Positions 9,577-44,443 of a stretch of DNA of 64,000 nucleotides are shown one piece after another. The stretch spans positions 248,001-312,000 of the forward strand of contig NZ_QWGE01000002.1 of NCBI RefSeq assembly GCF_003576375.1, in the 5' to 3' direction. The stretch is from Pontibacter oryzae. Its GTDB lineage: Bacteria; Bacteroidota; Bacteroidia; Cytophagales; Hymenobacteraceae. Made by a program: the position numbers and the translations under genes. Numbering within the stretch: position 1 is the first letter of the stretch; every line of letters starts with the position of its first letter. The notes below the pieces were generated by a model, which worked only from the letters and a program-made list of their open reading frames with translations, made no database searches and was not told the DNA's origin.

Positions 9577-9650
9577 CGGTCTGGACGGGACTCGAACCCG
9601 CGACCTCCGCCGTGACAGGGCGGCATTCTAACCAACTGAACTACCAGACC
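9577..9650 (-). tRNA. tRNA-Asp (anticodon GTC), copy 2 in transcription order
   Basis: Read on the minus strand this folds as a standard cloverleaf: acceptor GGTCTGG with CCAGACC, anticodon stem CCGCC/GGCGG with loop CTGTCAC (anticodon GTC), T arm GCGGG-TTCGAGT-CCCGT, and a G discriminator at 9577. G73 fits tRNA-Asp identity. CCA is not encoded (CTC follows), so it must be added. The 73 nt before the discriminator are identical to the copy at 9710-9782, 59 nt away. Confidence 0.97.
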
Positions 9651-9708: not shown

Positions 9709-9782
9709 CGGTCTGGACGGGACTCGAACCCGCGACCTCCGCCGTGACAGGGCGGCATTCTAACCAACTGAACTACCAGACC
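9709..9782 (-). tRNA. tRNA-Asp (anticodon GTC), copy 1 in transcription order
   Basis: Identical cloverleaf to the copy at 9577-9650, again with G discriminator (9709) and no encoded CCA. It is the promoter-proximal gene of the pair. Its 3' end overlaps a small stem, ACCGCAG (9693-9699) with CTGCGGT (9706-9712), followed on the minus strand by an A/T-rich run. This could be a processing or weak attenuation structure in the spacer between the two tRNAs. Confidence 0.97.
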
Positions 9783-42125: not shown

Positions 42126-43370
42126 ATGAACCTACTCGAAAATATACGCGAAGGCCTGAGAGCCATCAAGAGCAACTTGCTCCGCACCGTACTTACCGGT
42201 CTAATCATTTCCATTGGCATCATGTCGTTGGTTGGCATACTTACCGCTGTTGATAGCATGAAGTACTCCCTGACCCAAACCTTCTCAAACCTGGGAGCCA
42301 ACTCCTTCGATATCCGCCGGAAGGGCATGAATAACCGGGGTAGTCGACAGGGCCGCGTGGAGAAAGTATACCCACAGATAGATTACGAGCAGGCATCGCA
42401 GTACAAAGAGCAAATGGCCGATGAGGCGCGCGTGAGTCTTTCGGCGTTTGTTTCCGGGGCCACAGTTGTAAAGAGCGAAACAGAGAAAACCAATCCAAAC
42501 ATTAGTGTGGTGGCGGCTGATGAGAACTACATGCTCAACAATAACCTGAACCTGGCCAAGGGGCGCGACTTTTCTTCTTTTGAGCAGGAGATGGGAAATA
42601 ACGTGGCTATTATCGGAGATGAATTGGCTACCAGCCTTTTTAAAGGACAGGATGCAGTAGGAGAGTATATTACCTTTTTAGGCCGAAGGTTTAAGGTTAT
42701 TGGCCAGATGGAAAAAGCGGGCAGCAGCATGGGTGGCAGCAGCGATCGCCGCATACTTATACCCCTCGAAACTGGCCGCCAGATTCCTAGAAATGGCAAT
42801 TCGGAGCTGAACTTCGATATTAAAACAGCTATTTTTCGAGCCGATGAACTGAACTATGTGATGGGCGAGGCTACCGGAAAAATGCGCAACATTCGGCAGG
42901 ATGCCTTAGGCCAGGAAGACTCCTTTGAAATTCGTCGCTCTGACTCGCTAATCGAAAGCCTGAACAAAATAACCGGTTACTTGAAATGGGGAGGAGGCGT
43001 TATCGGGTTCATCACGTTGCTGGGCGCATCGGTTGGTTTGATGAACATTATGATGGTATCGGTAAACGAACGCACCCGCGAGATTGGTGTGCGAAAGGCC
43101 TTGGGTGCAACAGCCTTCCAAATACGGCAGCAGTTCCTGATAGAGGCTATCGTTATCTGTATACTTGGCGGTTTGGTGGGTATACTGCTTGGCATTTTAA
43201 TGGGTAACGGCATTGCCTCGTTAATTGCCGAAGGCGGCGGTTTCTTTGTGCCTTGGCTATGGGTTTTTGTGGGGCTTAGCATTTGTGTAGCAGTAGGCGT
43301 TATCTCTGGTTACTATCCGGCTTTCAAAGCTTCTAAACTTGATCCGATTGAATCGTTGCGATATGAGTAA
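42126..43370 (+). CDS. ABC transporter permease, MacB/FtsX type
   Basis: 414 residues with the MacB layout: N-terminal helix (about residues 22-42), a large periplasmic MacB-PCD domain (about 45-275), then three helices and the FtsX domain (about 285-405, [16 protein letters not shown]). No ATPase gene lies next to it, so its nucleotide-binding partner is encoded elsewhere. The family exports lipoproteins, peptides or macrolides, or works mechanically in the envelope. It is divergent from the 41991 gene and monocistronic with a strong terminator. Confidence 0.92.
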
Positions 43371-43376
43371 TGTTGA

Positions 43377-43441
43377 AAAGTATGGTATAAACGAGAAGCC
43401 CGCTGCGAACAACAGCGGGCTTCTCGTTTATACCATACTTT
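43377..43441. terminator. terminator, perfect 29-bp hairpin capped by AAGTAT
   Basis: Left arm 43377-43405 pairs perfectly with 43413-43441 over 29 bp with a 7-nt loop. The outer arm begins AAAGTATGGTATAAAC, the inner part is the GC-rich GAGAAGCCCGCTG. It follows the permease stop by 6 nt. It shares the order AAGTAT, GTATAAAC, GAAGC and a GC core with the hairpin at 14086-14147. Confidence 0.9.
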
Positions 43442-43529
43442 AACTTCAGCGCTGACTTAACTTGGCTTATGTTAGCATAGCTGGGAGAGATGCTCAGTCT
43501 TGCATACTTATCTTTTCAAGCTACTTTGT

Positions 43530-43657
43530 TGAGCTCCAAGTCCGCGAGGACTCGTTTTACCACTCGGCGCTGTGTTCCCTCCTGCGCCAGGGCGCTGCCC
43601 TACGGGCACCGGATCTCACAAGGCGCCTCCCGGAAAAACTGGGAGCTGTTTTTTTCT
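43530..43657 (+). ncRNA. candidate structured RNA element with its own terminator
   Basis: GC-rich stretch in an otherwise average intergenic region. Visible folds: AGTCC-GCGA-GGACT (43539-43552, GNRA tetraloop); GGCGC with GCGCC (43566-43570, 43584-43588); the overlapping alternatives AGGGC-GCT-GCCCT (43589-43601) and TGCCC-TAC-GGGCA (43596-43608); and CTCCC with GGGAG (43627-43645) followed by a run of seven T. The last is a good intrinsic terminator for a plus-strand transcript. No credible protein is encoded. It could be a small RNA, a mobile intergenic repeat or a riboswitch-like remnant. Confidence 0.35.
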
Positions 43658-43757
43658 TAAGTTGCGAGTTTTAACGCCTTCCTGCTAAGCGGGCTTATCT
43701 TGATGCTTTTCGTTTCTAGGTTCACGTTGCGTTTAGATTAGGCGGTGGCATAGGTTT

Positions 43758-43804
43758 AAAACCAAAAGGCCCGCTGCAGGTTGTGCGGCGGGCCTTTTGG
43801 TTTT
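43758..43804 (-). terminator. terminator after the OmpH gene
   Basis: 17-bp stem AAAACCAAAAGGCCCGC (43758-43774) with GCGGGCCTTTTGGTTTT (43788-43804) and a 13-nt loop, with T run in the minus direction. It lies 16 nt past the stop of the Skp/OmpH gene. Confidence 0.85.
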
Positions 43805-43819: not shown

Positions 43820-44443
43820 TTACTTCTTTTTCTCTTCAGTCGTCTTTTCTTCTTTTTTGTCAGAAGATTCGGCTTTCTCTGTTTCGTAGGTCTTGTTTAG
43901 TGAAGCAACAACTTTCTCGGTGATGTCCAGGGTAGAGTCGCCGTAAAGGATGGCGCTGTTGCCACGCTGGTAAGTGAGCACCATTTTGTAGCCTTCCTCG
44001 TTGCTTAACTGCTTCAAGTATTCCTCTACGCGGTCGTAGATTTTCTTCATTTCCTCCGACTCCTCAGAAACAAGCTCGTTGCCTGAGCTTTGCTGAAGCG
44101 CCTGCAGCTGCTGCTGCTTCTGGGCAAGGCGCTGCTCAGTGTTAGCACGCTGCTGCTGCGACATGCCGGCCGCTGACTCCTGGTAACGTTGTACTTCTTT
44201 CTGGAAAGACTCAGCCTGTGCGCGAAGGTCTTTTTCTTTTTGTTCGGCTTTGCCTTGCAGGCGGTCGCGTACGTCTTTAAAGTATTCGTAGTTCGCCAGG
44301 AGCGAGTCAGAGTTTACATAAACGATGTTCGGTGCGCCTGCAGCGGTCTCAACGTTTGCGGTAGTGTTGTTCGGGTTCTGGTTGCAGGCTACCATCATGG
44401 CAGAAGCCGCAGCCAGACCTAATGTCATCTTTAAAACTTTCAC
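43820..44443 (-). CDS. OmpH/Skp family chaperone, lipoprotein form
   Basis: 207 residues. A lipobox MVAC gives Cys20, so this Skp-like protein is predicted to be lipid-anchored. The OmpH core is a helical coiled coil (FKDVRDRLQGKAEQKEKDLRAQAESFQKEVQ and Gln-rich stretch QQRANTEQRLAQKQQQLQAL) following the strand IVYVNSDSLLANY. The tail is Lys/Glu-rich. Skp holds unfolded outer-membrane proteins in the periplasm; an anchored variant is common in Bacteroidota. It stands alone before the mtaB gene, 68 nt after it. Confidence 0.9.
   Translation of the reverse strand: MKVLKMTLGLAAASAMMVACNQNPNNTTANVETAAGAPNIVYVNSDSLLANYEYFKDVRDRLQGKAEQKEKDLRAQAESFQKEVQRYQESAAGMSQQQRANTEQRLAQKQQQLQALQQSSGNELVSEESEEMKKIYDRVEEYLKQLSNEEGYKMVLTYQRGNSAILYGDSTLDITEKVVASLNKTYETEKAESSDKKEEKTTEEKKK

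Follow-up and report, generated by a model that had tools for sequence, protein, structure and literature searches.

The block between a permease-like and an ompH-like gene of Pontibacter oryzae is a copy of an ordinary kind of sequence, a dispersed intergenic repeat. The family to which it belongs is probably a mobile repeat, structured and non-autonomous, about 200 nt long and with turnover of its content at old sites. Its copies are dispersed and mostly intergenic, their fold covaries, no gene travels with them, and the element is absent from the corresponding gap of relatives. We favour a mobile repeat because the own genome contains at least 19 copies and the family occurs in 43 of 50 Pontibacter genomes, because 32 of 33 pairs covary and a pseudoknot pair changes its type, and because only 1 of 30 ompH loci is occupied while contexts vary, with no recurrent neighbour among 444 ORFs. 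A partial copy on a plasmid of Pontibacter actiniarum and 10 of 11 shared-site copies whose nearest family member sits at another site point the same way. The window is the whole stretch of 64,000 nucleotides analysed.

The copy in the window and its parts

The gap is flanked by a permease-like gene that ends at 43370 on the + strand and by an ompH-like gene at 43820-44443 on the - strand, so that no gene follows the block in the sense direction, as the preliminary description had it. All the pairings named there were found in the sequence at their positions. The block it delimited (43530-43657, about 130 nt) contains real hairpins, while the repeat proved longer (Table 1). Its borders were read by eye from the flanks of 33 copies, in which similarity between copies sets in near CTTATGTTAGCATAGC and ends just past the T-rich 3' part. 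Elsewhere in the window, two adjacent tRNA genes of equal score lie on the - strand at 9577-9650 and 9709-9782.

Table 1 Features of the repeat copy and its surroundings, in window coordinates (percentages are cells paired in the 105-copy alignment).
Feature	Position	Strand	Remarks
Whole repeat copy	43466..43662	+	Ends approximate
Structured core, match of covariance model R1	43511..43644	+	140.8 bits, E 1.1e-37; this copy is one of the 19 from which R1 was built
Pseudoknot 5' strand, partner loop 43544-43546	43532..43534	+	Top covarying column pair, 119 copies
Hairpin P1, AGTCC-GCGA-GGACT	43539..43552	+	95.8%
P2 5' strand, partner 43632-43639	43554..43561	+	Internal A.A mismatch; 95.4%
P3 5' strand GGCGC-TGTG, partners 43617-43620 and 43623-43627	43566..43574	+	AG bulge at 43621-43622
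P4 TCC, partner GGA 43611-43613	43580..43582	+	Two modelled pairs, 98.5%; outer T-A pair outside the model
Hairpin P5, GCGCC/GGCGC	43584..43595	+	87.2%
Hairpin P6, TGCCC/GGGCA (TGCCC-TAC-GGGCA)	43596..43608	+	96.0%
Terminator-like hairpin CTCCC/GGGAG (43627-43645) with T7 (43649-43655)	43627..43655	+	1/110 anchored copies
Long hairpin 3' of the permease gene, outside the repeat	43379..43440	+	Read from sequence; likely terminator of the permease gene
Hairpin 3' of ompH, outside the repeat	43758..43804		Read from sequence; likely terminator of the ompH gene

The core of R1 comprises 137 positions and seven helices. The 5' strand of the pseudoknot reads AGC in the window copy and CNC in most copies, and two of the three pseudoknot pairs are formed here. 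In P3, GGCGC (43566-43570) pairs with GCGCC (43623-43627). P5 and P6 stand side by side as adjacent hairpins; the GCCC of P6 has an alternative partner in the preceding GGGC, and the terminator-like hairpin competes with the conserved stem P2. Folded alone, the + strand of the window copy gives z -1.55 (15 of 200 shuffles as stable) and the - strand z -2.97 (0 of 200). With a modest + strand fold and a more stable - strand, the window sequence by itself settles nothing.

Distribution of the family and its gene contexts

By blastn the repeat occurs at seven places in its own genome, the window copy counted. Counting that genome, 23 of 59 gave matches; every matching genome is a Pontibacter, and the 22 genomes outside the genus gave no match. 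R1 raised the number in the own genome to at least 19 and found at least one copy in 43 of the 50 Pontibacter genomes, with no match in the other seven. Thirteen of these genomes hold at least 66 copies each, counts that are lower bounds because all 66 candidates scored per genome matched. The preliminary description had offered a dispersed intergenic repeat, with similar blocks in related genomes, as one possibility, and these copies support it.

Across the bacterial family, R1 matched 67 of 150 genomes in four of six genera, and across the order 9 of 194; most matches fall in three related genera and in Pontibacter itself. When named genomes were scanned with a pattern, at least 80 matches were obtained, and all matches listed are Pontibacter. 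Within the order, three species in a different genus have one copy each (L066, L067 and L068), and in all three the fold copy lies between the same two genes, of 357 and 473 aa; these copies are possibly an old or functional relative. The partial copy on the P. actiniarum plasmid covers 53% of the element at 74.8% identity. No copy was found in the phage records searched. In Rfam no family matches. A search of 20 loci at E values up to 5 gave, near the window copy, hits that are far below cut-off and coincide with the two flanking putative terminators. The open-licence papers searched on Pontibacter and Hymenobacteraceae gave no description of the family.

Among the 30 ompH loci examined in the 50 Pontibacter genomes, the element is present only at that of the own genome; a second, weak match on the other strand (L198, 12.8 bits, E 0.1) was not counted. 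The permease is kept beside ompH in 27 of the 30 loci, own counted, within the stretch read. The spacing between the two genes is 88-244 nt in 18 of the 26 other loci, whereas the own genome has 455 nt. Divergence of the nearest relative is too great for exact borders.

Gene contexts could be read for 90 of 119 copies: 25 are convergent, 20 divergent and 45 codirectional. The last group is antisense to its genes in 32 cases and sense in 13 (p 0.0066, copies not being independent). Fourteen copies fall within a mechanically called ORF. Among the 444 ORFs of the 119 loci, only those inside the element and those of orthologous loci recurred.

Where two copies lie less than 500 nt apart they are arranged tail to tail (+ then -) in all eight cases noticed, among them L055, L072, L023, L027 and L134 and pairs in G073, G090 and G258. 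In two copy-rich species (G014 and G023) the copies sit among many shorter palindromic repeats; the flanks of L074-L113 there are intergenic mosaics of short palindromic modules linked by TATACTT, and some of these modules resemble palindromes beside RAYT genes.

Covariation and the pseudoknot

The structure was written by hand and then tested on alignments of copies. Alignment A1 took 30 of 35 loci and A2 19 of 35, leaving out loci with inserts, partial copies or long inner hairpins. In a broader collection, the core profile found 155 of 162 loci, of which 119 remained once duplicates and weak or partial matches had been removed; 100 of these entered alignment A4 and yielded 105 matches.

In the 19-copy alignment the share of paired cells is 92.1%, compared with 84.8% for shuffled and 37-50% for slid controls, and 13 of 36 pairs show changes on both sides; on one of the five measures, that of further pair types, the alignment does not exceed its shuffles (24 against 23.9). 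With 105 copies, 92.3% of cells pair against 79.7% shuffled and 28-49% slid, an alignment that leans towards the structure because it was fitted to the model. The preliminary description had named compensatory change among copies as a check on the fold, and changes on both sides were seen here in 32 of the 33 pairs. In P1 the middle pair is GC in 45 copies, CG in 43 and UA in 10, and one pair of P6 is GC in 34, AU in 23 and CG in 18. P2 changes on both sides in 7 of 7 pairs. The two parts of P3 are paired in 84.6% and 90.5% of cells, its outermost pair not being formed in 66 of the 105 copies, and P5 differs in length among copies. The excess over chance lies in the family.

An alignment of the 119 copies made with MAFFT, not fitted to the structure, was scanned over all column pairs with background correction. 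The top pair joins the strand before P1, the GCGA hairpin, to the loop of P1 and so forms a pseudoknot, and the next ranks are a P2 pair and a P1 pair. The pseudoknot had been written by eye before the scan, and the folding programs used cannot output pseudoknots. Its top pair is GC in 46 copies, CG in 43, TA in 23 and otherwise in 7. In a tree from which the pair columns were left out, a minimum of 20 changes of pair type was counted, where shuffled labels gave a mean of 49.7; the 20 is approximate given the moderate branch support (median 79). Some high-ranked columns do not pair (for instance z 15.5 with 5% standard pairs) and mark subfamilies, so that rank in the scan is by itself no proof of pairing. 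The 5' leader contributes no column to the top 70 covarying pairs. Taken over the family, the fold is unusually well supported, pseudoknot included.

The strand on which the fold forms is less clearly marked. In the model-fitted alignment, 108 G.T cells stand against 55 A.C cells on the + strand; 15 pairs favour G.T and 12 favour A.C, a single P5 pair accounts for 14 A.C cells, and a hand count over the pseudoknot, P1 and P2 gave 24 of each. The + strand as the structured strand is a lean, not a result. Some copies contain an internal module, about 20 nt long and bearing GGGGTAGGGGCCC or its complement, that is absent from the orthologous copy (L139 against L158; also L024, L003 and L019).

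Turnover at shared sites, competing explanations and known systems

A 20-kb stretch of G013 was picked because it holds two copies, and five other species were compared with it. Its first site is occupied in all five and its second in four, G062 being the exception. Occupancy in 9 of 10 comparisons at these two sites counts against mobility, and such persistence exceeds the expectation for a freely moving element. The copies at the sites are nevertheless unlike. Mean identity is 0.63 between orthologous copies (25 pairs) and 0.70 between non-orthologous copies of different genomes (442 pairs), a comparison over two sites with non-independent pairs, in which most paralogues were the top-scoring copies of two species and the other species supplied one to four, a choice that favours high non-orthologous identity. 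Of 11 copies at the two sites, one is closest to its orthologue and 10 to a copy from another site, four of these nearest copies lying in the same genome as the copy compared (identity up to 0.98). Two further shared sites (L007/L020/L077 and L142/L149) hold copies of different subtypes. Some sites are thus old although the copies in them change, an outcome that gene conversion would produce, as would replacement recurring at preferred sites. In-place compensatory evolution was considered for L142/L149 and set aside, as replacement explains the pair equally well. The orthologous copies L139 and L158, which are alike except for small inserts, count against mobility. No clean empty site was found in the comparisons made, that with G062 included, and neither terminal inverted repeats nor a target duplication, the marks of a MITE, were seen by eye in the flanks of the 33 copies or in the G062 comparison.

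For a mobile repeat, we propose that the + strand, as a single strand of RNA or DNA, would fold into the pseudoknotted, branched structure, and that an enzyme supplied in trans would recognise this fold and copy or exchange the element among intergenic sites. Recognition by an enzyme would place the structure under selection in lineages where the element spreads. Some sites would be old, with further family members replacing or overwriting the copies resident there, and neighbouring genes would need to play no role.

A family of host non-coding RNAs is a rather unlikely alternative. Here many copies would be transcribed and act, for instance by protein binding or by shaping neighbouring transcripts, with the structure kept in place by selection. 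The strong covariation would suit such a family, as would the excess of G.T over A.C on the + strand, which is what an RNA would leave, the positions common to several species, and the distant genus in which three species have one copy at the same place. However, seven of the 50 Pontibacter genomes are without a match, neither neighbour gene nor orientation is constant, copies at shared sites do not have their sequence in common, and few pairs carry the strand signal.

That the mobile repeat represents a new class of mobile non-coding element, one whose pseudoknotted single-strand fold is what is recognised, so that fold and not position decides retention, appears unlikely. Sites would then be long occupied while their content is replaced by other family members, and movement or conversion would be the work of a type of enzyme that has yet to be linked to folds of this sort. 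The family matters in any case: it combines the lack of an Rfam match with covariation in nearly all pairs and a pseudoknot of three pair types, and a mobiliser, if found, would reveal how so complex a single-strand fold is recognised. If the copies are functional instead, they would make up a dispersed RNA family of large size in a genus from the environment. Because sites shared between species hold unlike copies, named Pontibacter genomes offer a test of how small repeats turn over.

It is distinctly unlikely that the element is an oversized, atypical REP, the substrate in trans of a RAYT (TnpA-REP) enzyme of the genus. Y1_Tnp transposases occur in 43 of the 50 Pontibacter genomes, including all 38 with five or more copies, and their number follows copy number (rho 0.67, a rank correlation that ignores phylogeny). 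Of 30 Y1 proteins examined, 10 have both NH[LIV]H and YIH[QN]NP, which are reported as motifs of the Bacteroidetes subclass 2.6 of TnpA-REP (PMC6006769). Yet none of the 90 Y1 loci examined, out of 151 matches and with a few IS200-type genes or fragments among them, carries the element within 1.5-2 kb, which also counts against mobility as the lack of an adjacent mobiliser, and many of the flanks inspected show other palindromes. Two genomes have copies and no Y1 match (G002 and G011), and two have Y1 genes and no copies (G059 and G067). Among the enzymes tested, the least unlikely is a RAYT-type Y1 that works from a distant locus.

A riboswitch or attenuator in which two folds alternate and a terminator follows, the layout to which the preliminary description likened the block, is highly improbable: the hairpin with T7 is present in the window copy, but only there among 110 anchored copies, so that the reading draws on the features of one copy; the alternative GGGC-nnn-GCCC hairpin occurs in 12 of 119 copies, against 85 for the helix that competes with it (strict pattern); the downstream gene is not co-oriented at the window copy and lies on the other strand in 57 of the 90 copies for which both neighbouring genes were identified; Rfam gives no match; and the contexts and copy counts show neither a place upstream of a co-oriented gene nor a conserved expression platform.

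Several known systems were compared with the family. A group II intron or retron was rejected, as the own genome has no RVT_1 match and Rfam none for the element; over the 50 genomes, reverse transcriptases show rho -0.12 with copy number. One Pontibacter genome with two element copies has 14 reverse transcriptase matches at several places (G002:C1), often side by side; they include seven of one kind, all scoring the same, and six of a second kind, likewise equal in score. HEARO/IscB and TnpB guide RNAs are structured RNAs of mobile elements and can occur without an ORF, a likeness to the present element. They differ from it in that Rfam gives no match and TnpB is rare in the genus. The TnpB zinc-ribbon family exceeds its cut-off in 4 of 50 Pontibacter genomes, the own genome giving only a match beneath it, and neither TnpB nor reverse transcriptases track copy number. 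No iscB or tnpB is among the recurrent neighbours, and RRXRR (IscB) was found in 0 of 50 genomes, in a search whose controls likewise gave nothing. A HEARO/OMEGA guide RNA was rejected on the Rfam, neighbour and TnpB results.

With REP sequences and RAYT subclass 2.6 the family shares a dispersed, intergenic and structured nature and genomes that carry such enzymes. Genes of subclass 2.6 are reportedly flanked by atypical structures (PMC6006769). A REP is a single palindrome of 20-40 nt (PMC3733652) with a GT[AG]G foot, which subclass 2.6 reportedly lacks, whereas the element is about 200 nt, branched and not beside enzyme genes. Neither its form nor its place at the Y1_Tnp loci is that of a REP flanking its tnpA-REP gene.

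The bcr1-bcr18 repeats of the Bacillus cereus group are described as intergenic elements of 100-400 bp within one bacterial group, with up to 130 copies of bcr1 per genome, conserved secondary structure in some of the 18 families, mobile features without a gene, and a reported TTTAT motif (PMC6542083, PMC3446304). The Pontibacter family likewise is dispersed between genes, at 66 or more copies in 13 genomes, and largely confined to a group, with structure and no internal gene. The bcr repeats differ in belonging to another phylum, and the pseudoknot and the turnover at shared sites are known from the Pontibacter element. Compared by description rather than by sequence, the bcr repeats would be the nearest known kind in manner.
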